From positions 186,001 through 250,000 of the forward strand of contig NZ_JADFFK010000007.1 of the NCBI RefSeq assembly GCF_015223355.1: DNA of 64,000 bases. Reading direction: 5' to 3'. Source of the DNA: Salipiger mangrovisoli. Lineage in GTDB: Bacteria; Pseudomonadota; Alphaproteobacteria; Rhodobacterales; Rhodobacteraceae. The position numbers and the translations under genes were made by a program. The notes under the pieces were generated by a model. The model did no database searches and was not told where the DNA came from. It saw only the letters and a program-made list of their open reading frames with translations. This document shows, in pieces, positions 43,068 to 54,851 of this stretch. The number at the start of each line of letters is the position of its first letter. Positions within the stretch are counted from its first letter, which is position 1.

Positions 43068-43619
43068 TCAGGCGGCGAGGCGCAGGGCGCCTGCCTGCCG
43101 GGCGAGCCATTCGCGGCGCAGCGCGGCGGCACCGATGCAGGCCGAGATCAGCGCGCCGACGAGGCCGGGCAGGGCGCCGACCGAGAGGTCGAGGCCGATG
43201 CCGAAGGGCGCGGCGCAGAGCATGACGGCGCGCATCCGCAGCGTGTCACGCTGCATCCGGCCGACCATCACGAGGCAGCAGGCGGTCATCGCCAGTCCCG
43301 AGGCCAGCCCGCTCCATGTCAGCGCCGTGACCAGCCAGACCACCGGCAGGAAGCCCAGACCCATGTGGCGCAGCCAGGGGCGCTCGCCAGCGGCAAGGGC
43401 GATAAGCGTCTGGGTCGCGCCGATGGCGCAGACGCCGGTGCCGCTCCACTGGCCAAGCAGCGCGTATTGAGCGGCGTAGCAAGCGGCGATGCAGAACTGC
43501 GCTGTGAGGATCTGGCGGCGCTGCTTGAACAGGGGCCAGACAAGCTGTCCGGCCAGGCCCGCGGATCCGAAGAGGACCGCCGGGGAGATCGCGGGGATCA
43601 AGGCGAGTACGTCGGGCAT
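43068..43619 (-). CDS. YgjV-like inner-membrane protein
   Basis: A 183-residue membrane protein with about six helices, resembling the Imp-YgjV family (QLVWPLFKQRRQILTAQFCIAACYAAQYALLG). The function is unknown. The start at MPDVLALIPA is supported by GGAGG five bases upstream. It is transcribed away from the TetR gene, and its promoter region holds GAAAC repeats and an inverted repeat (listed separately). Confidence 0.75.
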   Translation of the reverse strand: MPDVLALIPAISPAVLFGSAGLAGQLVWPLFKQRRQILTAQFCIAACYAAQYALLGQWSGTGVCAIGATQTLIALAAGERPWLRHMGLGFLPVVWLVTALTWSGLASGLAMTACCLVMVGRMQRDTLRMRAVMLCAAPFGIGLDLSVGALPGLVGALISACIGAAALRREWLARQAGALRLAA

Positions 43620-43635
43620 CTTGGCCTCCATCAGA

Positions 43636-43653
43636 GCAGACTTTTTGGTCTGC
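43636..43653. promoter_or_regulatory. inverted repeat GCAGAC-N6-GTCTGC upstream of the YgjV-like gene
   Basis: A perfect 6-bp inverted repeat with a TTTTTG spacer, 17 bases upstream of the YgjV-like start. It uses the same CAGAC/GTCTG half-sites as the palindrome in front of the TetR gene, so it may be a second TetR site. Confidence 0.5.
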
Positions 43654-43674
43654 ATCGAACGTACCAACCGGTCT

Positions 43675-43732
43675 GTTTTCGGGGGAGAGCCTTCCGGGTT
43701 TCGCTTGTTTCACCGCCGTATCAGCGCGTTTC
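43675..43732 (-). promoter_or_regulatory. GAAAC repeat array upstream of the YgjV/rhodanese genes
   Basis: On the minus strand GAAAC occurs at 43732-43728, 43711-43707 and 43702-43698, followed by GAAAA at 43680. The middle two form the same GAAAC-N4-GAAAC pair seen at 44468, 45511, 48454 and 52650. The following GAAAA is 22 bases downstream, so the three-part fit is looser here. Confidence 0.45.
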
Positions 43733-43777
43733 AGTCTCGTATTCGCGGTAAATGTTGCGATCCGGGCCGAGGCGGCA

Positions 43778-43795
43778 TAGTCTGATTACAGACTA
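43778..43795. promoter_or_regulatory. candidate TetR operator (18-bp palindrome)
   Basis: TAGTCTG-ATTA-CAGACTA is a perfect palindrome 19 bases upstream of the TetR-family start codon, a typical place for autorepression. Confidence 0.65.
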
Positions 43796-43814
43796 AGCGG
43801 TTTGGAGGTGCCCC

Positions 43815-44447
43815 ATGTCCCGCAAGGGTGAGCAGTCCCGCGAACACATTCTCGGAAGCGCCCGCGCGCTGGTGATGGAGAAGGGCTTTGCGGGCACCTC
43901 GATCGACGACATCCTGCGCAGGGCGGGGGTGTCGAAGGGGGCCTTTTTCCATCACTTCGCCTCCAAGGCCGAATTGGCGCGTGCGCTCGTGCGCTGGCAT
44001 GCGGGGCAGGATCTCGAGATGTTCCGCACCCTCGCCGCCCGCGCCGAGGCGACCCATGACGATCCCTACGACCAGCTGCTGATGTTCCTTCAGGGGTTCG
44101 AAAGCTACATTTCGAACCCCGAGCAGCCGTCGCGCGGCTGCATGTACGCGGTCTACACCTACGAGAACGCCCAGTTCGACGAGGAGGTGCGTGGCATCGT
44201 CACCGAGGTGCTGCGGGACTGGACGGCGATCTACATCCGCAAGTTCCAGGAGGTGCTGGATGTACACCCGCCGCGCATCGAGGTCAGCGCCCGGCAGCTT
44301 GCCGAGTTGGCGGTCTCGATCATCGAAGGCGCGCTGGTGCTTCAGCGTGCCTATGGCAAGCCCGACATGACCGCCCGCCAATCCCGGCATTTCCGCGAGT
44401 ATCTCGCGCTGCTCTTCGACCGGCCCGCGCGTGCCGCGGTGGCCTGA
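43815..44447 (+). CDS. TetR/AcrR-family regulator
   Basis: A 210-residue protein with an N-terminal TetR helix-turn-helix (REHILGSARALVMEKGFAGTS, then VSKGAFFHHFASKAELARALV). The helical ligand domain follows, with GCMYAVYTYENAQFD near residue 110. It is divergent from the YgjV/rhodanese genes and upstream of the OsmC gene. Palindromes on both sides of its promoter are likely sites. The ligand is unknown. Confidence 0.9.
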   Translation: MSRKGEQSREHILGSARALVMEKGFAGTSIDDILRRAGVSKGAFFHHFASKAELARALVRWHAGQDLEMFRTLAARAEATHDDPYDQLLMFLQGFESYISNPEQPSRGCMYAVYTYENAQFDEEVRGIVTEVLRDWTAIYIRKFQEVLDVHPPRIEVSARQLAELAVSIIEGALVLQRAYGKPDMTARQSRHFREYLALLFDRPARAAVA

Positions 44448-44467
44448 ACCGTTGCGGGCTTCGGCGT

Positions 44468-44524
44468 GAAACGAATGAAACAGCGCGCGCAATCGGCCTG
44501 AAACGCGGCCCCGTCAGAACTTCT
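44468..44524 (+). promoter_or_regulatory. GAAAC three-part promoter element A (OsmC gene)
   Basis: GAAAC at 44468, 44477 and 44500: a pair with N4 spacing, then the third after N18. The third is followed by N-CGG and AGAACTT, as in the other copies. It lies 81 bases before the OsmC start. The N18 here is exactly 10 bases (one helical turn) shorter than the N28 of the other three. Confidence 0.6.
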
Positions 44525-44584
44525 GTCCATCGGAAGGGCACAGCGCCCGACGAGCCCAGACACTCCAATGGACAGGAGCCCAAG

Positions 44585-45163
44585 ATGACGACCCAGACCC
44601 TCGAGAAGCCCGCCAAGACCGCCATGAACGGCGTCGACGTGCCGACCTTCCTCGCCACGCTCGGCGTGGTGGGCGAGACCCCGGACATCGCCAAGTTCAC
44701 CTTCCGCGCCGACGGCGAATGGCTCTCCGGCACCCACAGCCGCACCGCCTTCACCGGCTTCCACGGTGCCATGCAGGAGATGCAGCACCGCCGCGACTAC
44801 GCCGTCGAATGCGACCACCCGCAGGTGCTCTGCGGCGCGGACAACGGTGTCACCCCGGTCGAATTGCTGCTGGCGGCGCTGGCCTCCTGCATCACCGCCG
44901 GGATCGGCAACATCGCCTCGATCCGCCAGGTCAAGCTGCACGCGGTCGAGACGAAGATCGAGGGTGACATCAATCTCAATGGCATCCTCGGCCTCGACAA
45001 GAGCGTGCGCAACGGTTTCGCGGGCATCCGCATGGCGGTGAAGATCCGCGGCGACGCCCCGCAGGAGAAGCTTCGCGAGATCGTCGAGCAGTCGGTGGCC
45101 CGCTCCGCCGTCTTCGACGTGCTGAGCAACGGCGTGCCGGTCTCGGTCGAGATGGCCGCCTGA
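44585..45163 (+). CDS. OsmC-family protein lacking the second cysteine
   Basis: A 192-residue OsmC-type protein. The first redox cysteine is present (LAALASCITAGIGN, ~residue 101), but the second site reads ARSAVFDVLSNG, with no cysteine. This belongs to the OsmC branch that is probably not a classical two-cysteine peroxidase. An N-terminal extension of ~50 residues precedes the fold. AGGAG lies six bases before the ATG. It is preceded by the GAAAC element and followed by a 56-residue protein gene. Confidence 0.82.
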   Translation: MTTQTLEKPAKTAMNGVDVPTFLATLGVVGETPDIAKFTFRADGEWLSGTHSRTAFTGFHGAMQEMQHRRDYAVECDHPQVLCGADNGVTPVELLLAALASCITAGIGNIASIRQVKLHAVETKIEGDINLNGILGLDKSVRNGFAGIRMAVKIRGDAPQEKLREIVEQSVARSAVFDVLSNGVPVSVEMAA

Positions 45164-45246
45164 CCCCGGACAGACTGCCCGCGCCGACCGGTGCGCGGGC
45201 CACGTCCCCCAAGCCCTCAATCCCCCTCATCCGAAAGGACAGATCC

Positions 45247-45417
45247 ATGCCCCGTTTCTCCGCCCCCGCCGCCAAGCCCAGCTACGGCTCCGGTTTCGAC
45301 AACGTCGCGATGCGCGACACCTTCGCCGACTTCCGCGCCTGGTGGGACCGTGCCTGCCTGCTCGCCGAAGCGCCGGTGCAGGCTCCGAAAGGCACCTCCC
45401 TGCCGATGGCCGCCTGA
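45247..45417 (+). CDS. small protein of unknown function, 56 residues
   Basis: Starts MPRFSAPAAKPSYGSGFDNV and contains FRAWWDRACLLAEAP. A GAAAGGAC ribosome site precedes the ATG by ~6 bases, and codon use matches its neighbours. It has one cysteine and a WW aromatic pair. It lies 84 bases after the OsmC gene, likely on the same transcript. No family is recognised. Confidence 0.6.
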   Translation: MPRFSAPAAKPSYGSGFDNVAMRDTFADFRAWWDRACLLAEAPVQAPKGTSLPMAA

Positions 45418-45510
45418 GCCGGGCTCTCCTCCCATCCTCCCACCCTCCCCAACGGCCCGCTGCCATTGCGCTGCGGGCCGTCTGCTTTTCACGGGCCGCG
45501 CGCCGGCGCT

Positions 45511-45576
45511 GAAACACTCGAAACGCGAAGGCCTGCGGCAAGACGCAGTGGCGAAACACGGCGCGGTCAATCTTGG
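45511..45576 (+). promoter_or_regulatory. GAAAC three-part promoter element B (flavoprotein gene)
   Basis: GAAAC at 45511, 45520 and 45553 (N4, then N28). The third is followed by ACGG and AATCTTGG. The third box is 47 bases before the ATG of the flavoprotein, so transcription must begin within the next ~30 bases; this makes the third box a candidate -35 or activator-overlap site. Confidence 0.65.
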
Positions 45577-45599
45577 GCAAACCCCAATGGAGTGAGCCC

Positions 45600-46847
45600 A
45601 TGAGCACCGCAACGCGCGTTCTGATCCTTGGTGCCGGCCAGGCCGGCCTTGCCCTGAGCTGGTCGCTGTCGCGGCGCGGCATCGACCATATCCTGCTCGA
45701 ACGCGGGCGGGTGGGAGAGCGCTGGCAGTCCGAGCGCTGGCCGGGGCTGCACCTTCTCACGCCGAACTGGATGAACCGGTTGCCGGGGCCGTGGGCCGAG
45801 AAGGATCCCTCGGGCTTCATCTCCGCCGCCGAGTTCGGCCAGCGGCTCGACGCCTACCGCAAGGCCATCGCCGCGCCGGTGGTGACAGGCTGCGAGGTGC
45901 AGCTGGTCGAGCGGGAAAGCGACCGCTTCCGGGTGATCGCCGGCGGTCGGCAGTGGTTCGCCCGCGCGGTGGTCATCGCCACCGGCGCATGCGATCTGCC
46001 GGCGGTTCCGGAGTGGGCCGCCGCGCTGCCGAAAGAGGTCACGCAAGTGGTGCCCACGCGCTACCGCGGTGCGCAGGCGCTGCCGCAGGGCGGGGTGCTT
46101 GTCGTCGGCGCCTCGGCCACCGGCGTGCAGCTGGCGGCCGAGATCCGCGCCTCGGGCCGTCCGGTCACGCTTGCCGTGGGCCGTCATGTGCGCTGCCCGC
46201 GCCGGTATCGCGGGCGCGAGATCTTCGATCTGCTGCAGGACAGCGGATTTCTCGATGCCCCCCGCCCGCCGGATGCCGATGCGGCGCAGCTTTTGGCGCT
46301 GCCCTCGCTGCAACTCACCGGATCGGAGGGCGGCGGGGCGCTTGGCCTCGACCGGCTCCGCGCGATGGGTGTGCGGCTGGTGGGCCGGGCGCTCGGCGCC
46401 GAGACGGGCGTGCTTCGGCTCGATCCTGCACTCGGCGCGGAGGTCGAGGCGGGGGAGCGTCGGCGGCGCAAGCTGCTCACGCATGTCGAGACCCATCTTG
46501 CGCTGTCCGGCAGCGCGCTGCCGGCGGATGCCGACGCCTGGCGCAGGCCGGAGCTGCCGCGCCACGGTCCCGAGCGGCTCGACCTGGCGGCGGCGGGCAT
46601 CCGCAGCGTCATCTGGGCCACTGGCTTCCGCCGCGCCTACCCGTGGTTGCAGGTTCCGGTGCTGACCGGTGCCGGAGAGCTGGAGACCCAGGGCGGGCGC
46701 ACCGCAGTGCCCGGTCTCTACGCGCTTGGCCTGCCGTTCCAGCGCCATCGTGCCTCGGCCTTCATCCACGGCGTCGGTCGCGATGCCGAGGCGCTGGCCC
46801 CGGTCATCGCCGCCGGGCTGCGCCGGGCTCTGCCACGTGCCGCCTGA
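45600..46847 (+). CDS. FAD/NAD(P)-dependent flavin monooxygenase-like protein
   Basis: About 415 residues. The N-terminal FAD motif is VLILGAGQAGLALSWSLSRRG, and the second dinucleotide motif GVLVVGASATGVQLAAEI (~residue 165) binds NAD(P)H. SVIWATGFRRAYPW is the ATG-containing segment of flavin monooxygenases of the YlmS/CzcO type, which also include sulfide- or thiol-handling members. The start at 45600 is set by GGAGTGAG. A second flavoprotein gene follows 25 bases later in the same unit. Confidence 0.85.
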   Translation: MSTATRVLILGAGQAGLALSWSLSRRGIDHILLERGRVGERWQSERWPGLHLLTPNWMNRLPGPWAEKDPSGFISAAEFGQRLDAYRKAIAAPVVTGCEVQLVERESDRFRVIAGGRQWFARAVVIATGACDLPAVPEWAAALPKEVTQVVPTRYRGAQALPQGGVLVVGASATGVQLAAEIRASGRPVTLAVGRHVRCPRRYRGREIFDLLQDSGFLDAPRPPDADAAQLLALPSLQLTGSEGGGALGLDRLRAMGVRLVGRALGAETGVLRLDPALGAEVEAGERRRRKLLTHVETHLALSGSALPADADAWRRPELPRHGPERLDLAAAGIRSVIWATGFRRAYPWLQVPVLTGAGELETQGGRTAVPGLYALGLPFQRHRASAFIHGVGRDAEALAPVIAAGLRRALPRAA

Positions 46848-46872
46848 CCCCCTTCACACAAGGAGATTCACA

Positions 46873-48009
46873 ATGAACATAGAAACATACGACGTACTTA
46901 TCGTGGGGGCCCGCTGCGCCGGCGCGGCCACCGCCCTGCAGCTCGCCCGGCAGGGCGCGAGGGTGCTGCTGATCGACAGCGCGGCGCCGGGAAGCGACAC
47001 CATGTCCACCCACGCGCTGATGCGCGGCGCGGTCATGCTGCTGGACCGCTGGGGGCTTGCCGAAGCACTGCGCGACGCGGGAACACCGCAGATCACCCGG
47101 ACCAGATTCATCTACGGGACCGAGGCGATCGACATCGCCATCCGCCCGGAACAGGGGGTCGCGGCGCTCATGGCGCCACGGCGCCACCTGCTTGACCGGC
47201 TGCTCGCCGAGGCGGCCGCGGAGGCGGGCGCCGATGTGCGGTTCGAGACCGCTTGCACCGGGCTGATCGAAGACGCGCAGGGCCGGGTGCGCGGCGCGCG
47301 GCTGGCCTTGCCAGATGGCGGCACCCGCGAGGTGCGCGCAGGGCTGGTGATCGGCGCCGACGGCAAGCGCTCGCGCGTGGCCCGGCTCGCGGGGGCAGAG
47401 GTCACGCGGCGTGCGCATCACACCGTGGCCTGCACCTACCACTACGTCACGGGCCTGCCAAACCGCGGCTTTCGCTGGCATTTCGCGCCCGGCGCGGCGG
47501 GCGGGATCATCCCGACAAACGCCGGGGCAAGCTGCGTCTTCATTGCGCTGCCTCAGGGCTCCGCCTCCGAGCTGCGCCGCACGCCTCTGGCCGACCTGGC
47601 GGCGCGGCACATGCCCGCGATGTCCGAAGACCTGGCCGGCGCGGTGCCGGTCGAGGGGCGGGTGACCTTCGCGGGCCTGCCGGGCTACATGCGCCGCTGC
47701 GCCGGGCCGGGCTGGGCGCTGGTCGGCGATGCCAGTTGGTTCCGCGATCCGATCACCGCGCATGGCATCACCGACGCCTTCCGCGATGCCGAGCTGCTGT
47801 CCTCTGCGGCGAGCAGCGGCACGCTCGGCGGCTACGAGGCACTGCGCGACCACCTGTCGCTGCCGATCTTCGACCTGTCGGACCGGATCGCCAGCTTTGA
47901 GTGGTCGATGGACGAGCTGGCCGGGCTGCACAAGCACCTCAACCGTGCGATGAAAGCCAATCAGGGCTGGATCGCCGGAGCGCCTGACCCGGCGCGCCGG
48001 GTGGCCTGA
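46873..48009 (+). CDS. FAD-dependent monooxygenase/reductase of the p-hydroxybenzoate hydroxylase fold
   Basis: About 378 residues. FAD motif DVLIVGARCAGAATALQLARQG at the N-terminus; DG motif VIGADGKRSRVA (~residue 160); and the GD-type motif WALVGDASWFRDPITAHGITDAF near residue 280. This matches aromatic hydroxylases and geranylgeranyl-reductase-like proteins. AGGAG precedes the ATG. It ends before a strong terminator at 48104. The substrate is unknown. Confidence 0.85.
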   Translation: MNIETYDVLIVGARCAGAATALQLARQGARVLLIDSAAPGSDTMSTHALMRGAVMLLDRWGLAEALRDAGTPQITRTRFIYGTEAIDIAIRPEQGVAALMAPRRHLLDRLLAEAAAEAGADVRFETACTGLIEDAQGRVRGARLALPDGGTREVRAGLVIGADGKRSRVARLAGAEVTRRAHHTVACTYHYVTGLPNRGFRWHFAPGAAGGIIPTNAGASCVFIALPQGSASELRRTPLADLAARHMPAMSEDLAGAVPVEGRVTFAGLPGYMRRCAGPGWALVGDASWFRDPITAHGITDAFRDAELLSSAASSGTLGGYEALRDHLSLPIFDLSDRIASFEWSMDELAGLHKHLNRAMKANQGWIAGAPDPARRVA

Positions 48010-48103
48010 GACGTCGCAAGGCCGCGCGGCGCGCCTATGCCGGGCTGCCTTGGCGCATCGGCGGAAGCGGCGGCGGTGGGACACCTGACCCGTGCAAGAC
48101 AAA

Positions 48104-48130
48104 AAGGACCCGCCGATCTGGCGGGTCCTT
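48104..48130. terminator. bidirectional Rho-independent terminator
   Basis: Perfect 11-bp stem AAGGACCCGCC / GGCGGGTCCTT with the loop GATCT. The plus strand continues CCTTTTTTTG and the minus strand TTTTTGTC, so it can end both the flavoprotein transcript and the small minus-strand gene. Confidence 0.9.
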
Positions 48131-48162
48131 CCTTTTTTTGTCCAGCGGCTGCGCGCGGCGGC

Positions 48163-48312
48163 TCAAAACCCGTGGGTGCGGCGAAAGACCCGGTGCCACT
48201 CGGCCTCGCGCTCGATCTCGGCCTTGGCGCCGTAACCGTGCCGGGCGCGGCGCAATCTGCGGTCCGCGCGGGGCTGCTGCAGGGCATTGTTCAACGCGTT
48301 GAGGGCTTTCAT
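48163..48312 (-). CDS. small basic protein of unknown function, 49 residues
   Basis: Reads MKALNALNNALQQPRADRRL and ends HRVFRRTHGF. It is Arg-rich, probably helical and soluble. It is supported by an AAGGAG ribosome site 7 bases before the ATG, a terminator 33 bases after the stop, and a GAAAC promoter-like box upstream. The match to neighbouring codon use is good. No family is recognised. Confidence 0.65.
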   Translation of the reverse strand: MKALNALNNALQQPRADRRLRRARHGYGAKAEIEREAEWHRVFRRTHGF

Positions 48313-48342
48313 GTCATGGCTCCTTGCGTTTGGCGGTGATGC

Positions 48343-48394
48343 GCCAGTCTCGCGTGCCGGTCTCGCGTGCCAGTCTCGCGCGCCGGTGTTTCAG
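48343..48394. repeat. 13-bp tandem repeat inside a divergent promoter region
   Basis: Four contiguous 13-mers: GCCAGTCTCGCGT, GCCGGTCTCGCGT, GCCAGTCTCGCGC and a diverged GCCGGTGTTTCAG. On the minus strand the last two units give GAAAC followed by ACCGG and GAGACTGGC, the same spacing as the third box of element D. The expansion therefore copies part of a promoter element facing the 49-residue gene. Confidence 0.65.
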
Positions 48395-48453
48395 CCCGAT
48401 GTCCCGCGGCGGCCCCGTGCGTATCGCGTGCAGCGCCGCCCCAGCGCGCTGCT

Positions 48454-48519
48454 GAAACAATCGAAACACGGCCCAACCTTGCGCGACATGCGCCTGAAAC
48501 ACGGGCGACCAAGACTTGG
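48454..48519 (+). promoter_or_regulatory. GAAAC three-part promoter element C (globin-cyclase operon)
   Basis: GAAAC at 48454, 48463 and 48496 (N4, then N28). The third is followed by ACGGG and AGACTTGG. It lies ~137 bases before the truncated haemoglobin ATG, leaving a leader of ~110 bases. Confidence 0.65.
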
Positions 48520-48636
48520 ATTTCCGCCCTTGGATGAAAACCTTGCCACAGAGGTGCAAGATCCCGCATGTTTGTAGAGCATTGCATGTTCGCGCATTTT
48601 TACGGTGGGGAGCCGCGGGCTCCGGGGGAGGTTGCC

Positions 48637-48993
48637 ATGGAGAAGTCCCTGTTCGACAAGTACGGCGGCTTTTCCGTCGTCAGCAAGATCGTCCTCGACC
48701 TCTACGACCGGCTGCTGGACGATGATGACGTGGGCCCGTTCTTCGACGAGATCGACATGGCCCGCATCGTCGATCACCAAACCAAGTTCGTCTCTTCGCT
48801 GATGGGCGGCCCGGCCTCCTACACCGACGAGCAGATCCGCAAGATGCACGCGCATCTGCGGATCGATCAAAGGCATTTCGACAAGCTCCAATCGCTGCTG
48901 CGCGCCACGCTGGCAGATCATGGCGTGGCACCCGAGGATCAGGACGCGATTCTCGGGGCCTTCGAGGCGCGGCGCCCCTTGGTGACGGAGTAA
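48637..48993 (+). CDS. truncated haemoglobin (group I-like)
   Basis: About 118 residues, the normal size for a 2-on-2 globin. The start at MEKSLFDKYGG is chosen for the GGGGGAGG site five bases upstream; the earlier frame adds 23 unlike residues. Family marks: GPFFDEIDMARIVDHQTKFV, GGPASYTDEQI, and MHAHLRI with the proximal haem histidine, then RHFDKL. It would bind O2, NO or a related ligand. It is the first gene of an operon with a cyclase (4 bases downstream), a hybrid kinase and a response regulator, so it probably delivers or scavenges the sensed gas. Confidence 0.88.
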   Translation: MEKSLFDKYGGFSVVSKIVLDLYDRLLDDDDVGPFFDEIDMARIVDHQTKFVSSLMGGPASYTDEQIRKMHAHLRIDQRHFDKLQSLLRATLADHGVAPEDQDAILGAFEARRPLVTE

Positions 48994-48997
48994 CGCC

Positions 48998-50047
48998 ATG
49001 ACCATCGCCGCGATCAACGAGCAGCTGCTGCGGGCGATCGGGGTGGGGGTTGCGCTTCTCGACCTGCAGAGCCTGCGCCTGCGCTTCTGCAACGACACGT
49101 TCCGCGGCTGGTTCGGCGAGATGGAGGTGGGCTCGAACCTGCTCGAGCAGTTCCAGGACTTCGACACCGAGGCCTTGCGCGCCGCGCTCGAGGCCGAGGG
49201 CCGCTACACCACCGAGACCACCTTCCGCCTGCGCCGCCGCACGATGACCGTGGCGATGGATTTCAACCGCGCCCTCGACGAGGACGAGCCGATCGCGGTG
49301 CTGGTGTGCCAGAACATCTCGCGCATCAAGGAACTGGAGTCGATGATCGACAGCTATTCCATGATGGTCGAGCGCAACACCCGCGAGATCAAGCGCGAGA
49401 AGGAGCAGGTCGAGAAGCTGCTGCTGAACATGATGCCGCGTTCGGTCTACGAGGAATACAAGACCTTCGGCATCGTCACGCCCCGGCTCTACGATCCGGT
49501 CTCGGTGGTCTGTCTCGATTTCGTCGGCTTTTCCGATATGGTCAGCGCGCATGAGCCGGGGGTGATCGTCTCGGAGCTCAACGACATCTACACCGCTTTC
49601 GACCGCATCGGCGAGCAGTTCGGCTGCGCGCGCATCCGGGCGGTGGGCGATCTCTACATCGGTGTCGCCGGGCTGCCCGATCCCACCGACGACCACGCGC
49701 AGGCGGCCGCCAATGCCGCGATCCGTTTCATGCGCTACCTCAACCAGCGCAACGGCAGCCATCCGATCCAATGGTCCTGCCGCGTCGGCATCGCCTCGGG
49801 AGCGGTGGTCGGATCGGTGGTCGGCGTGCAGAAATACATCTACGATGTCTTCGGCCCCGCGGTGATCACCGCGAGCCAACTGCGTTACAAGGCCGAGCCG
49901 ATGACCATCTCGGGCAACCGCGCGGTGGTCGAGCGGCTCGGTGACGAGTTCACCGCCGCCGAGGCGGGCAGCATCACGCTCTCGGATGGCAGCGAGGAGG
50001 CGGTCTTCCGCATCGCCGCCGAGATGCGCGCGGCGCAGGAACGCTGA
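48998..50047 (+). CDS. PAS/coiled-coil class III nucleotide cyclase-like protein
   Basis: A 349-residue soluble protein. Residues ~1-110 are a PAS-like sensor (LLDLQSLRLRFCNDTFRGWF). Residues ~112-150 are a coiled coil with the sGC-like MMPRSVYEEY. Residues ~160-330 form the cyclase domain. Both metal aspartates are present (VVCLDFVGFSDM and RAVGDLYIG). The residues equivalent to the transition-state Asn and Arg are replaced: VNVASR of canonical enzymes reads VITASQ. Activity may be weak, unusual or regulatory only. It is packed between the globin and kinase genes. Confidence 0.8.
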   Translation: MTIAAINEQLLRAIGVGVALLDLQSLRLRFCNDTFRGWFGEMEVGSNLLEQFQDFDTEALRAALEAEGRYTTETTFRLRRRTMTVAMDFNRALDEDEPIAVLVCQNISRIKELESMIDSYSMMVERNTREIKREKEQVEKLLLNMMPRSVYEEYKTFGIVTPRLYDPVSVVCLDFVGFSDMVSAHEPGVIVSELNDIYTAFDRIGEQFGCARIRAVGDLYIGVAGLPDPTDDHAQAAANAAIRFMRYLNQRNGSHPIQWSCRVGIASGAVVGSVVGVQKYIYDVFGPAVITASQLRYKAEPMTISGNRAVVERLGDEFTAAEAGSITLSDGSEEAVFRIAAEMRAAQER

Positions 50048-50048
50048 G

Positions 50049-51956
50049 ATGGCGGTGCGCTTCGATCCCTCGGTGCCGGAAGCAGGGGGCGGGCCGCAGC
50101 GGCGTCCGGCCGACATGCTGGCCGAGGTGATCGATGCGCTGTCCGAGGGTCTGGCGATCTTTGACGAGAACGCCCTGCTGCTGCGCTTCAATGCGGGGTT
50201 CGCCGAGATGAACCCGGCGGTTGCCGACCTGCTGGCCGAGGGGCTCGACTGGTCGCTGCTGCTGCGCGAATGGGTGGTGCGCGGCGGGCTTGCGCCCGAG
50301 GATGCCGAGCGGCTCAACTTCATGGAGGCCAGGCTTGCGGGGGGCGACTGGATGGTCACCCCGCTTGAGATCGAGAGCGGCGACCGCGTGACGCAGATGG
50401 TTCTGCGCAGCACCGCCGCTGGCGGCTTCGTGCTGGTTCAGACCGACGTGACCGAGCGCCGCGTTGTCGAGGAGACCGAGCGCGCGGCTGACCAGCTGGT
50501 GCGCAAGGTGCTGGAAAGCTGCCCGGCAAATATCATCATGTCGCGCGTCGGCGACGGCGAGGTGATCTACCGCTCGCCCGCCGCGACCGAACTCTTGGGC
50601 AGCGCCGAGCACACCCACGCGCATTTCGCCTCGCGCGCCGAGCGGGCCGACTTCATCACCGCAGTGCTTCCCGACGGGCGGGTCGACGACATGCCGGTGA
50701 CCGGGATCCGTGCCGATGGCGCGCGGTTTCCCAGTCTGGTCTCGGCGCGGCTGATCCAGTATCGCGGCGAGGACGTGCTGGTCTCCTCGACCATCGACGT
50801 GTCGAAGGAAGTGGAGCTGCGCCGCCGACTTGCCGCGCAGCGCGAACAGATCTTCCAGGCGGAGAAGATGTCGGCGCTCGGCGAGCTCCTGGCCGGGGTG
50901 GCGCACGAGCTGAACAATCCACTCTCGGTGGTGGTAGGCCACGCGCTTATGTTGCGGGACGAGGACATCTCGGACGAGGTTCTGCGCCGGGTCGAGAAGA
51001 TCTCGGATGCCGCCGAGCGCTGCGCGCGCATCGTGAAGTCCTTCCTCGCCATGGCCCGGCAGCAGCCTGCGAGGCTGGTGCCGATGGACATCGCCGAGAC
51101 GGTCGAGACCGCGGTGGGCGCGCTGTCGCAAAGCGCCGAGGGGCTGGGGGCAGAGGTCTCGCTGCAGATCGCGCCGGATCTGCCGCCGGTACGCGGCGAT
51201 GCGCATCAGATCGCGCAGGTGGTCATCAACCTCGTGACCAATGCCGATCAGGCCATCGGCGAAAGCGGCACTGGCGGGCGGATCGACGTATCCCTGAGCC
51301 ACGACCTTGCTGCGCAGCGGGTGGTCCTGCGTGTCGCTGACGACGGGCCGGGCATCCCGAGGGACATCCGCAGCCGCATCTTCGACCCGCTTTTCACCAC
51401 CAAGCCCGTCGGCTCGGGCACGGGCATCGGGCTTGCGCTCTGCCACCGTATCGTCACTGCGCATTCGGGGACGATCGCGCTGGCCGAGAGCGGTACGGGC
51501 GCGACGCTGGTGGTGCGCCTGCCGACCACCGAGGCGCGCGAGGCCGAGGGCGAAGGCGCAACCTTGGCCGCGAAGCCTGCCGGGCGCGGCGCGGTGCTGG
51601 TGGTCGACGATGAGGAGGACGTCTCGGACCTCATCCGCGAGATCCTCGGGCGCGACGGCTTCGAGGTGACGGTCGCCGGCTCGGCCGAGGCCGCGCTCGA
51701 CCTTTTGGCCGGAAGAGAGTTCGCGCTGATCCTGACCGACCTCAACATGCCGGGGCTGGGCGGGCGCGGGTTCTACGAACGGCTGCTGCGTGACCGCCCG
51801 TCGATGGCCCGCCGCATGGGCTTCGTCACCGGCGACACGATGAGCCCGCAGGCGCGCGGTTTTCTCGACGGCGCCGGGCGCCCCTTCCTCGAAAAGCCCG
51901 TTGCGCCCGAAGAACTCCGCCGCCTCGCGCGCGGCATGCTGGAGGGCAACGCATGA
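50049..51956 (+). CDS. PAS hybrid sensor histidine kinase with C-terminal receiver
   Basis: About 635 residues and no membrane helix, so it is a cytoplasmic sensor. PAS domains span ~20-130 and ~155-255. HisKA has the phospho-acceptor His in AGVAHELNNPLSVVV (~290). The ATPase domain has INLVTNADQAI, DDGPGIP and GTGIGLALC (~380-490). A receiver with phospho-Asp in LILTDLNMPG spans ~515-630. It starts one base after the cyclase stop and overlaps the response-regulator ATG by four bases. Confidence 0.9.
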   Translation: MAVRFDPSVPEAGGGPQRRPADMLAEVIDALSEGLAIFDENALLLRFNAGFAEMNPAVADLLAEGLDWSLLLREWVVRGGLAPEDAERLNFMEARLAGGDWMVTPLEIESGDRVTQMVLRSTAAGGFVLVQTDVTERRVVEETERAADQLVRKVLESCPANIIMSRVGDGEVIYRSPAATELLGSAEHTHAHFASRAERADFITAVLPDGRVDDMPVTGIRADGARFPSLVSARLIQYRGEDVLVSSTIDVSKEVELRRRLAAQREQIFQAEKMSALGELLAGVAHELNNPLSVVVGHALMLRDEDISDEVLRRVEKISDAAERCARIVKSFLAMARQQPARLVPMDIAETVETAVGALSQSAEGLGAEVSLQIAPDLPPVRGDAHQIAQVVINLVTNADQAIGESGTGGRIDVSLSHDLAAQRVVLRVADDGPGIPRDIRSRIFDPLFTTKPVGSGTGIGLALCHRIVTAHSGTIALAESGTGATLVVRLPTTEAREAEGEGATLAAKPAGRGAVLVVDDEEDVSDLIREILGRDGFEVTVAGSAEAALDLLAGREFALILTDLNMPGLGGRGFYERLLRDRPSMARRMGFVTGDTMSPQARGFLDGAGRPFLEKPVAPEELRRLARGMLEGNA

Positions 51957-52651
51957 GCGATCACGTCCTGATTTGCGACGACGAGCAGGACCTGCGCGAG
52001 ATGGTCGGCGAGTACCTCGGCAAACGCGGCTATCGCACCACGCTGGCGGGCGGGGCCGACGAGTTGCGCGAGAAGCTGGCGCAGGACCGGCCCGATCTCA
52101 TCCTGCTCGACATCAACATGCCCGGCGAGGACGGGCTTTCCGTGCTGCGCAGCCTGCAGGGTCCGGAGGCGCCGATGGTCATCATGCTGACCGCCGCAGG
52201 CGAGGTGATCGACCGGGTGGTCGGCCTCGAGATGGGGGCGGACGATTACCTTGCGAAACCCGTCGATCTGCGCGAGCTCGCCTCGCGGATAAAAGCGGTG
52301 CTGCGCCGGCAGACCTCGACCCCAGAAGAGGCGCCGCGCGAGCGCACGCGCTTCCGTTTTGGCAAGACATGGCTCGACCTCGACGCGGCCAAGCTCTTCG
52401 ATGAAGAGGGGGTGGAGCTGCCGCTCACCGCCATGGAATTCAACCTGCTGAAGCTCTTCGCCCGCAACCGGGGCCGCGTGCTCAACCGCGACCAGATCCT
52501 CGAGGGGGCGCATGACCGTTCGTGGGATCCCTTCGACCGCTCGATCGATATCCGCATCTCGCGCATTCGCAAGAAGATCGAGGTGAACCCGGCCAAGCCC
52601 GAAGTGATCCGCACCGTGCGCGGCGTCGGCTACATCTACGATCCGGGCTGA
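51953..52651 (+). CDS. OmpR/PhoB-family response regulator
   Basis: A 232-residue regulator: receiver domain 1-~115 with phospho-Asp in LILLDINMPGEDG and the LAKPVD lysine, then a winged-helix DNA-binding domain ~130-232 (LTAMEFNLLKLFARNRGRVLNRDQIL, VRGVGYIYDPG). It is coupled by ATGA to the hybrid kinase, its likely phosphodonor. Direct-repeat GAAAC boxes in nearby promoters are plausible targets because OmpR-type regulators bind direct repeats. Confidence 0.92.
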   Translation: MSDHVLICDDEQDLREMVGEYLGKRGYRTTLAGGADELREKLAQDRPDLILLDINMPGEDGLSVLRSLQGPEAPMVIMLTAAGEVIDRVVGLEMGADDYLAKPVDLRELASRIKAVLRRQTSTPEEAPRERTRFRFGKTWLDLDAAKLFDEEGVELPLTAMEFNLLKLFARNRGRVLNRDQILEGAHDRSWDPFDRSIDIRISRIRKKIEVNPAKPEVIRTVRGVGYIYDPG

Positions 52652-52715
52652 AATGATTGAAACCATCTTGACCGGGGTCTGACACAGGCGGGAAACTCGG
52701 GGCAGAGAGACTGGC
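52650..52715 (+). promoter_or_regulatory. GAAAC three-part promoter element D (globin/cysK operon)
   Basis: GAAAT at 52650, then GAAAC at 52659 and 52692 (N4, then N28). The third is followed by TCGGGG and GAGACTGGC. The first box overlaps the response-regulator stop codon; the globin ATG is 52 bases after the third box. Confidence 0.65.
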
Positions 52716-52743
52716 GGCATCATTCGAACATGAGGATCGCGCC

Positions 52744-53181
52744 ATGACCCTGACCACGCAGAACATCTCTGACATCCGCGCCAGCTGGCAGGTGCTTGCC
52801 GCGGACGCCGATGCCTTCACCAGTGACTTCTACGCGGCCCTCTTCCGCCGGAACCCGGCGCTGCGCTCGCTTTTCGCGAACACCGATCTGCCCGCGCAGC
52901 GCAAGAAGCTGGTCGCGGCGCTTGCGCTGGTGGTGCGCCAGGCCGACGATCTTGCGCCGCTGCTCGCCCCCCTCGCGGACATGGGGGCCCGCCACCTCGG
53001 CTACGGCGTGAAGGAGGCCGACTATGACGCCGTGGGGGGCGCGCTGATCGAGACCATGGAGACGCACCTTCGCGCGCTCTTCACCGCCGAGGTCCGCGCG
53101 GCCTGGCTGGCCGCCTATGGCGCGGTCGCGGGCGCCATGATGGCCGGGGCCAGGGCCGCGGCCGCGCGCAAGTCGGCCTGA
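52744..53181 (+). CDS. single-domain globin (flavohaemoglobin/Vitreoscilla type fold)
   Basis: A 145-residue 3-on-3 globin. The first helix reads ISDIRASWQVLAADADAFTSDFYAALF, and the proximal haem histidine is in GARHLGYGV, matching bacterial haemoglobins and the globin part of flavohaemoglobins. No reductase domain is attached. It likely binds O2 or NO. It starts the second GAAAC-controlled unit of the cluster, ahead of a membrane peptide and the CysK-glutaredoxin fusion. Confidence 0.9.
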   Translation: MTLTTQNISDIRASWQVLAADADAFTSDFYAALFRRNPALRSLFANTDLPAQRKKLVAALALVVRQADDLAPLLAPLADMGARHLGYGVKEADYDAVGGALIETMETHLRALFTAEVRAAWLAAYGAVAGAMMAGARAAAARKSA

Positions 53182-53192
53182 GGAGGCGCGGC

Positions 53193-53324
53193 ATGCCCCG
53201 GTCACCCGCCCCCTCGATCCCGCCCGCCGCCTTTGTCGCGGCGGGGCGCCGCAAACTGGCCGCCGCCGGTCTCGCGACAGCGGCGGCCGGGGTCTTTGCC
53301 CATTGCCTCCTTTCGTTTCTCTGA
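53193..53324 (+). CDS. small single-pass membrane peptide, 43 residues
   Basis: Reads MPRSPAPSIPPAAFVAAGRR and then a hydrophobic Ala/Leu-rich stretch (~residues 22-43) ending in LLSFL, with one cysteine near the C-terminus. GAGGAGG lies seven bases before the ATG. It sits between the globin (11 bases upstream) and cysK-type genes on the same strand. This is probably a real small membrane protein, although its coding nature rests on the ribosome site and position only. Confidence 0.5.
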   Translation: MPRSPAPSIPPAAFVAAGRRKLAAAGLATAAAGVFAHCLLSFL

Positions 53325-53348
53325 CCGCATTTCAGAAGGACACATCCG

Positions 53349-54851
53349 ATGACCAAAGCCTTTGACTCCATTCTCGAGACCGTCGGAAACACCCCAATCG
53401 TCCGGATCACCAAGCTCGCCCCCGAGGGTGTCGAGCTCTTCGTCAAGCTCGAGGCTTTCAACCCCATGGGCTCGGTCAAGGACCGGCTGGCGCTGGGGAT
53501 CATCGAGGCCGCCGAGGCCGACGGCTCGCTCACGCCCGGTCAGACGGTCGTCGAGGCCACGAGCGGCAACACCGGCATCGGCCTTGCCATGGTCTGCGCT
53601 GCCAAGGGCTACCCGCTGGTGGTGACCATGGCCGAGAGCTTTTCGATCGAGCGGCGCAAGCTGATGCGCTTTCTCGGTGCCAAGGTGATCCTCACCCCGG
53701 CCTCGGAGAAGGGCTCGGGGATGATCGCCAAGGCGCGCGAACTGGCCGACAAACATGGCTGGTTCCTTGCGCGCCAGTTCGAGAACGAGGCCGGGCCGGA
53801 CATGCATTCACGCACCACGGCGCAGGAGATCCTCGAATGTTTCGACGATGCCCCGCTGGACTACTGGGTCAGCGGCTTCGGCACCGGCGGCACGCTCAAG
53901 GGGGTCGCGCGCAAGCTGAAGGCAGACAGCCCCTCTACCAGGATCATCGCCGCCGAGCCCGACAATTCCGCGCTGCTCGCCTCGGGCTGGTGCCAGCCCT
54001 ACAACGCCGACGGCTCTCCGGCCGCCAGCCACCCCGCCTTTCGGCCGCACTTGATGCAGGGCTGGTCTCCCGATTTCGTGCCGAAGCTGGTCGACGACGT
54101 GCTGCGCGCGGACTGGATCGACGAGCTGGTGCCGGTGGCCGGCGCCGATGCCATGACCTGCGCGCAGGATCTGGCGCGCTACGAGGGCATCCTCTGCGGC
54201 ACCTCGGGCGGGGCCACCTTTGCCGCCGCGCTGGACATTGCCCGGCGCGCTCCAAGGGGATCGCGCATCCTCGCCATGCTGCCCGACACCGGCGAGCGCT
54301 ACCTGTCGACGCCGCTCTTCGCCGAGATCGAGGAGGTGATGAACGCCGAGGAGCTGGACATCGCCGCCTCGACCCCTCGCTTCCGCTTTGACGCGAGCGC
54401 CAGCACCCCGGCTGCGCAGGCCGCTCCGCCCGCCGTCCCGACCGAGGCGGCGCGGGCAGAGCTGGCGACGCTGATCTCGAACCCCGAGACTCCGGTGGTC
54501 TTCTTCGCGCTCGAGTGGTGCGAGTTCTGCTGGTCGGTGCGCAAGCTCTTCGCCGCGGCCGGGATCGAGTATCTGTCCGTCGATCTCGACGGCGCCGCCT
54601 ATCGCCAAGACGATCGCGGCGGCGCGCTGCGCAAGGCGCTGGCCGAGAAGACCGGCGCGGTGACCATCCCGCAGATCTTCATCGGCGGTCGCCACGTCGG
54701 CGGGGCCACCGAGACCTTCGACGCCTTCAACAGTGGCGCGTTGCAGGAAATGCTGGCGGGTTTGGGGCGGCAGGTCCATACCGAGGGCATCGGCAATGCC
54801 TATGGATTCCTGCCCGCGTGGCTGCACCCTCGCAAGCCGGCGTCCGCCTGA
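53349..54851 (+). CDS. cysteine synthase-glutaredoxin fusion protein
   Basis: A 500-residue protein. Residues 1-~325 are a PLP-dependent O-acetylserine sulfhydrylase: Lys44 in MGSVKDRLALG, the substrate loop EATSGNTGIGLA and phosphate loop GFGTGGTLKGV. After a Pro/Ala linker (~345-370), residues ~370-475 are a glutaredoxin with active site EWCEFCWS (~390) and the TIPQIFIGGRHVGG glutathione-binding segment. Normal CysK is ~320 residues. The fusion may couple cysteine or persulfide synthesis to thiol reduction. It is downstream of the globin and upstream of an MFS permease gene (12 bases). Confidence 0.9.
   Translation: MTKAFDSILETVGNTPIVRITKLAPEGVELFVKLEAFNPMGSVKDRLALGIIEAAEADGSLTPGQTVVEATSGNTGIGLAMVCAAKGYPLVVTMAESFSIERRKLMRFLGAKVILTPASEKGSGMIAKARELADKHGWFLARQFENEAGPDMHSRTTAQEILECFDDAPLDYWVSGFGTGGTLKGVARKLKADSPSTRIIAAEPDNSALLASGWCQPYNADGSPAASHPAFRPHLMQGWSPDFVPKLVDDVLRADWIDELVPVAGADAMTCAQDLARYEGILCGTSGGATFAAALDIARRAPRGSRILAMLPDTGERYLSTPLFAEIEEVMNAEELDIAASTPRFRFDASASTPAAQAAPPAVPTEAARAELATLISNPETPVVFFALEWCEFCWSVRKLFAAAGIEYLSVDLDGAAYRQDDRGGALRKALAEKTGAVTIPQIFIGGRHVGGATETFDAFNSGALQEMLAGLGRQVHTEGIGNAYGFLPAWLHPRKPASA

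Follow-up and report, generated by a model that had tools for sequence, protein, structure and literature searches.

Among the closest described systems, as the excerpts of the papers cited in this text present them, OmpR recognizes 20-base elements composed of two 10-base sub-elements, with tandem half-sites occupied in the same direction (PMC3050692); its C1 site contains TTTACATTTTGAAACATC, which includes GAAAC (PMC2586830), and its consensus has been given as TTTTACTTTTTG(A/T)AACATAT (PMC5559549). PhoB binds a direct repeat that overlaps the -35 region upstream of the -10 element (PMC3348028), with strict spacing to the core promoter (PMC10294691), and the two-component system CenKR of Rhodobacter sphaeroides is concerned with cell division and envelope biosynthesis (PMC9275681). 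A 64-kb stretch of Salipiger mangrovisoli contig NZ_JADFFK010000007.1 (hereafter the window) contains repeated promoter elements built of GAAAC boxes at fixed distances, in front of genes for globins, a nucleotide cyclase, an OsmC-like protein and flavoproteins. From sequence comparison, these boxes are predicted to be binding sites of the OmpR-type response regulator encoded at 51953-52651 (probability roughly 0.78), the whole forming a local regulon of that regulator at promoters that lack a -35 element, apparently undescribed as far as the open-access literature goes.

The box element and its spacing

Box positions were read directly from the letters of the window. Four sites on the plus strand had been reported in the preliminary description, which missed a fifth, divergent site on the minus strand; the boxes are named A to D, and the scores are those of the matrix described below.

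44468-44520, plus strand: site of the OsmC gene; A 44468, B 44477, degenerate C (GCAA) 44489, D 44500, -10-like CAGAAC 44515-44520; score 38.0
45511-45573, plus strand: site of the Pyr_redox_3 flavoprotein gene; A 45511, B 45520, C (GACG) 45542, D 45553, -10-like CAATCT 45568-45573; score 35.5
48454-48516, plus strand: site of the truncated globin, cyclase, histidine kinase and response regulator genes; A 48454, B 48463, C (GACA) 48485, D 48496, -10-like AAGACT 48511-48516; score 55.0
52650-52712, plus strand: site of the globin gene; A (GAAAT) 52650, B 52659, C (GACA) 52681, D 52692, -10-like GAGACT 52707-52712; score 29.0
48372-48434, minus strand: fifth, divergent site; weak A 48434, B (GATAC) 48425, C (GACA) 48403, D (GAAAC) 48392; score 22.1 for the whole site, 26.4 for the block of C, D and -10 alone

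Boxes A, B and D all read GAAAC at the 44468, 45511 and 48454 sites, while the 52650 site has GAAAT as box A, which overlaps the stop codon of the response regulator gene. The distances of 9 (A to B) and 33 (B to D) at three sites are as first described, and at the 44468 site the B-D spacing is 23, one turn below the other three. The N-CGG noted after the third GAAAC box (D) is present in all four reported sites; the AGACTTGG-like sequence noted further downstream is also present, but its form varies (AATCTT, AGACTT, AGACTG, AGAACTT), and the stretch AGACTTGG takes in the -10-like hexamer. Contrary to the preliminary description, the first gene behind the 48454 box encodes the truncated globin and the cyclase gene is second. 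The fifth site faces a 49-amino-acid open reading frame (48312-48163) for which Pfam gave no notable match; two relatives have a gene for a DUF1127 protein behind the divergent site. In genome G345 the layout of the 48454 site recurs (L197 minus 9804, score 45), as do the position of the 52650 site (L197 minus 5639, score 40) and the divergent partner site (L197 plus 9823, score 25).

The matrix was derived without the window, from a training set of 19 sites in 9 related neighbourhoods that were selected by boxes A, B and D and the distances between them; L072 minus 15598 (by eye), L082 (the same record as L075), L083 (a near-copy of L081) and sites spaced 23 or 34 were excluded as well. The dinucleotide GA stands 11 bases ahead of D in all 19 training sites, mostly as GACA or GAAA, so that the C-D distance is 11 in 19/19, and A occupies place 2 of the hexamer starting 15 bases after the D start in 17 of the 19 (often TAGA); the dropped match of like quality, L072 minus 15598, has neither C nor hexamer, and with it the counts become 19/20 and 17/20. 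The A-B distance of 9 was fixed by construction of the search. What had been described as a three-part element therefore keeps its three boxes and gains a fourth: A (GAAAC), B (GAAAC, at +9), C (GACA or GAAA, 11 before D), D (GAAAC) and a -10-like hexamer at D+15. At the three 33-spaced sites of the window, C reads GACG, GACA and GACA (GAC in 3/3).

When the window was scanned with the matrix, the four reported sites took the top four ranks (29.0-55.0), against 7.0 for the best of 60 dinucleotide-shuffled windows, and the divergent site was fifth. In 14 held-out neighbourhoods of regulator genes (345,573 bases), 18 sites scored above 25, and 8 of these neighbourhoods had at least one; the held-out sites include L083 despite its closeness to L081. 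The GA of box C and the A of the hexamer are found in 25/30 and 28/30 matrix-picked sites respectively, counts that are partly circular because the sites were chosen by matrix score. No site above 25 was found in 73 neighbourhoods of distant regulators (L088-L160, 41-57% identical; 1,311,542 bases), the best scoring 23.9. One gammaproteobacterial contig encodes a regulator 47% identical to that of the window; upstream of this gene, and divergent from it, stands an element of the same type (L116 7133, minus strand; A-B 10, score 23.9), possibly an earlier version of the code.

The boxes precede similar kinds of genes, and further genes, in other genera, which supports the proposal that they define a regulon; across the window and its relatives, the genes behind them encode globins, OsmC, flavoproteins, DUF1127 proteins, alpha/beta-hydrolases, methyltransferases and VTT-domain proteins, among others. 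A minus-strand pair of boxes at 43711-43698, before YgjV/rhodanese, had been thought related. The pair exists, but it lacks the downstream half and scores 9.8 (shuffle maximum 7.0), and with its two boxes only it was rejected as a member of the regulon; no ygjV or rhodanese match was found among the relatives' neighbourhoods listed (first 40 of 90 loci; 27 loci).

With all B-D spacings from 10 to 80 allowed, the ortholog neighbourhoods, which total 613,078 bases when the training loci and some overlapping stretches are counted in, yielded spacings of 33 (36 sites), 32 (8), 23 (5), 42 (2), 28 (1) and 11 (1); the entries of 42 and 11 are already known 33-spaced sites picked up in the wrong register. 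The distant-regulator set yielded no site at any spacing in that range. The clusters at 32/33 and at 23 differ by one helical turn, as had been suggested from the 44468 site alone, and the class spaced 23 includes osmC both in the window and in genome G244 (L198 site, score 47). The 32-spaced training sites all lie ahead of a relative's kinase gene, where L085 and L087 have a spacing of 33.

A genome scan had been proposed as the measure of chance frequency. In the 6,350,258-base genome, GAAAY-N4-GAAAC-N28-GAAAC in its exact form occurs 3 times, always on the plus strand of the window, and the reversed pattern does not occur. The form with N17-30 and a trailing NCGG has 4 matches in this genome, exactly the four reported sites, and 3 in the other 197 family genomes (backward control 2). 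The two-box part alone is less specific (38 matches in this genome versus 8 for its backward control), and thus the third box and its spacing supply much of the specificity. The genome was scored with the matrix in stretches, that is, the window and selected loci. Among the 26 loci of relaxed searches of this genome, only the window sites and one other, C77:84928, exceed 16, and among the two-box matches outside the window only C77:84928 exceeds 8 (loci scored; of the five matches on C88 and C95, one was covered). This extra site (C77:84928-84964, or L031 1501-1537) has a score of 33.6 and a spacing of 23. It sits between converging HupE/UreJ-like and methyltransferase-like genes, both identified by eye.

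The predicted reader and the promoter layout

The response regulator at 51953-52651 consists of a receiver and a winged-helix C-terminal domain, as in the OmpR/PhoB family. Of the other 197 family genomes, 7 encode relatives 61-68% identical to it, G125 in two copies; at E <= 1e-70, relatives 55-80% identical are encoded in 15 of 393 other family genomes, the closest in G345; Rhodobacteraceae bacterium KLH11, Ruegeria sp. EL01 and Chachezhania antarctica are among those named. No close relative was found in G088, the one other same-genus genome searched (best 37%). The exact pattern is present in 28 of 394 family genomes, comprising 10 of the 16 with the regulator versus 18 of the 378 without it (Fisher p 3.7e-9), and in 9 of those 10 a match is on the contig of the regulator, no more than about 8 kb away; G210 has its match on another contig.

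One of the 18 pattern-bearing genomes without a full-length regulator, G244, encodes a 218-amino-acid protein (L198 12453-13109, contig C83), the last part of which is 81% identical to the DNA-binding domain of the window regulator and the first part of which shows no receiver in Pfam. Neither the kinase (at 1e-40) nor the truncated globin (at 1e-10) has a match in this genome, in which 4 sites scoring above 25 adjoin the genes for OsmC, a flavoprotein and CysK. The gene for the 218-amino-acid protein adjoins an open reading frame that is DUF1127-like by eye.

Four of the five best solved-structure matches of the DNA-binding domain are labelled OmpR (1odd, 1opc, 2jpb and 6lxl), and the alignment to solved OmpR structures places RSIDIRISRIRKKIE opposite RSIDVQISRLRRMVE, presumably the recognition helix. 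The window and 13 of 25 other loci have RSIDIRISR as this segment; the rest have RSIDIRIAR, RSIDLRISR, RSIDLRVSR, RSVDIQVSR or RSVDNRISR. Sites are found in 11 of 13 neighbourhoods with RSIDIRISR versus 6 of 11 with a changed segment, and the site-less G210, G355, G343, L084 and L074 all have a changed one (RSIDLRISR or RSVDNRISR), which suggests a weak trend only between the segment and the presence of sites. It is the conservation of the element, its co-occurrence with the regulator, the receiver-less case of G244 and the OmpR-like DNA-binding domain that together argue for this regulator, already named in the preliminary description as the best local candidate, as the reader of the boxes; a second receiver-less genome, G146, is without a site.

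Each promoter would present four half-sites, all facing one way, as an upstream A-B pair (9 apart) and a proximal C-D pair (11 apart). Ten bases separate the end of D from the -10-like hexamer; if this hexamer is the -10 element, C would lie near -38 and D near -27, and thus the C-D pair would occupy the usual place of a -35 element. As at PhoB-dependent promoters, the proximal pair lies directly upstream of the -10-like hexamer with no -35 consensus, and no TTGACA/TATAAT-like promoter was found in 43500-53400 (shuffles average only 0.5). With binding, activation, phosphorylation and the number of dimers all put forward as predictions, together with the operon structure given below, the phosphorylated regulator on C-D would recruit RNA polymerase in the manner of PhoB, most likely activating rather than repressing; a second dimer would sit on the A-B pair, roughly three turns further upstream (two in the case of osmC) and on the same DNA face, and raise occupancy; and the adjacent hybrid PAS kinase would set the phosphorylation state.

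Several observations weigh against this interpretation. The relaxed searches of the own genome came near the control level (10+6 versus 8+3, and 6+4 versus 1+3), and the C77:84928 site is not followed by an evident gene on the same strand (a small RNA or an antisense transcript may lie there); hence a genome-wide regulon is not supported, this genome having been scored with the matrix in stretches only, and the regulon is considered mostly local. No site above 25 is present in seven of the 15 held-out neighbourhoods (G146, G240, G210, G355, G343, L084 and L074); the neighbourhood in G240 ends at a contig end, and L074, the fifteenth, has 22.2 as its best score. In G146, the recognition segment of the receiver-less regulator is unchanged and the 26-kb contig contains no site, and changed segments also occur in the site-bearing L085, L086, G231 and G327. 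The backward control of the exact pattern is present in 47 genomes (4 of 16 with the regulator, 43 of 378 without); since it is not rare, single exact matches elsewhere are to be expected and mean little. The -10-like hexamers of the window lack a leading T, and the half-sites are 9 and 11 apart versus 10 in the OmpR excerpt (PMC3050692), the A-B distance of 9 being the adverse one.

The difference between the pairs in spacing (9 versus 11) and in first half-site, the shift of A-B relative to C-D by a whole turn, and the good C-D but poor A-B of the divergent 48434 site would all suit two proteins, with the response regulator on the 11-base repeat C-D and a second factor on the 9-base repeat A-B. 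That arrangement is nevertheless unlikely, as GAAAC is common to both pairs and both stand beside the receiver-less regulator of G244. Some extracytoplasmic function (ECF) sigma factors read a GAAAC-like -35 element about 16 bases ahead of the -10 element, and the combination of GAAAC with a conserved downstream hexamer resembles such a layout; the boxes are very improbable as -35 elements of this kind, however, because D is only 10 bases from the hexamer, because a sigma factor needs no four boxes in fixed phase, and because no sigma factor is encoded among the ten window genes scanned (the relatives were not searched for one). Even less probable is another local DNA-binding protein, for which the case considered was the TetR-type regulator (43815-44447), whose gene ends shortly ahead of the first site (other regulators near the boxes of relatives were not followed): it has no match among the box-bearing neighbourhoods listed (first 40 of 90 loci; 27 loci), the sequences that it probably binds are not direct repeats but the inverted repeats near 43640 and 43780, and the boxes track the OmpR-type DNA-binding domain. 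Recent duplication of one promoter segment without a shared regulator, to which the presence of four similar promoters inside 8 kb might point, is scarcely credible, since the bases between the boxes vary freely among the four sites, without identity, while boxes and spacing are constant, and the same boxes stand ahead of other genes in other genera.

Genes of the cluster and the proposed regulon

The identities of ten genes of the window were taken from a Pfam scan.

43815-44447: TetR-type regulator, ending 20 bases ahead of the first box site
44585-45163, plus strand: OsmC-like protein (OsmC 4.6e-18)
45600-46847, plus strand: flavoprotein, pyridine nucleotide-disulphide oxidoreductase-like (Pyr_redox_3 2e-17)
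46873-48009, plus strand: FAD-binding_3 flavoprotein (FAD_binding_3 8.2e-28)
48637-48993, plus strand: truncated (bacterial-type) globin (Bac_globin 1.2e-16)
48998-50047, plus strand: PAS-nucleotide cyclase (Guanylate_cyc 1.7e-31; PAS_8 0.00018, slightly short of the cut-off)
50049-51956, plus strand: hybrid histidine kinase with PAS, HisKA, HATPase_c and receiver domains
51953-52651, plus strand: OmpR/PhoB-type response regulator, proposed reader of the boxes (Response_reg 2.3e-27, Trans_reg_C 2e-23)
52744-53181, plus strand: globin (Globin 1.4e-16)
53349-54851, plus strand: cysteine synthase-like protein fused to glutaredoxin (PALP 5.7e-69, Glutaredoxin 1.9e-13)

With the OmpR-type regulator as reader, the regulon would consist of the globins, the cyclase, OsmC and the flavoproteins, plus the kinase and regulator genes themselves. 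The regulator gene lies 3' of the 48454 site by way of the string of truncated globin, cyclase, kinase and regulator genes, presumed from their spacing to be an operon, which would result in self-feedback; in several relatives the kinase-regulator genes have a site of their own. The 46873-48009 gene is probably co-transcribed with 45600-46847, and a terminator-like hairpin is located 3' of these flavoprotein genes (48104-48130), although such matches are no commoner than in shuffles. The target genes suggest redox, oxygen or nitric-oxide-like stress as the signal.

In the matrix scan of the window no box was found directly ahead of the cysteine synthase-glutaredoxin gene, relatives of which adjoin the cluster in several genera. 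Inverted repeats of the form AGAC/GTCT at 43640-43660 and 43778-43796, near the starts of the YgjV and TetR genes, resemble operators of the TetR-type regulator.

Genes for the kinase, truncated globin, cyclase, OsmC, flavoproteins and cysteine synthase recur in the regulator neighbourhoods in varying number and order, and in L074 and L084-L087 only the kinase and regulator genes were seen. A second related kinase gene, besides the one paired with the regulator, lies directly behind the truncated globin and cyclase genes in four loci (L190 9934-11349, L192 10129-11529, L193 2991-4385 and L199 14883-16289).

These arrangements are compatible with a movable cis-code, a tentative notion given slightly less than even odds: an OmpR-type domain and a phase-locked element of four half-sites might run an accessory globin/redox cluster scattered among genera of the family, with an exchangeable sensing part, at least one lineage having the same sites and a different N-terminus without receiver and kinase. 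A concrete binding code, with its predicted reader and a list of targets, for a conserved redox/globin cluster would offer a handle on the role of the globins and the cyclase, and the spacing classes one turn apart and the receiver-less regulator constitute natural experiments on the use of stacked half-sites by OmpR-type proteins.

Comparison with described systems

No description of this system of regulator and boxes was found in the open-access literature, which omits most subscription papers. The half-site sequence of the pho box differs from the GAAAC boxes, and the window promoters differ further from those of PhoB in their extra upstream pair, two or three turns away, and in the genes that they precede. 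The likeness to PhoB, as far as the excerpts of its description extend, is in the position of the proximal pair, over the -35 region and upstream of a -10-like hexamer (PMC3348028), and in the strictness of the distance to the core promoter (PMC10294691). CenKR resembles the window system in that its host probably belongs to the same bacterial family, and is set apart by its role as described in the excerpt (PMC9275681). Compared with EnvZ/OmpR, the window has a hybrid kinase (PAS-HisKA-HATPase-receiver) that by its domains is not of the EnvZ type, and its predicted targets are globins, a cyclase, OsmC and flavoproteins, with no porins among those scanned; nonetheless, the DNA-binding domain of the window regulator is closest to that of OmpR, the recognition segment is similar, several half-sites of one direction would be occupied in tandem as by OmpR (PMC3050692), and the GAAAC half-site resembles the OmpR consensus (PMC5559549) and is shared with the OmpR C1 site as given in the excerpt (PMC2586830).

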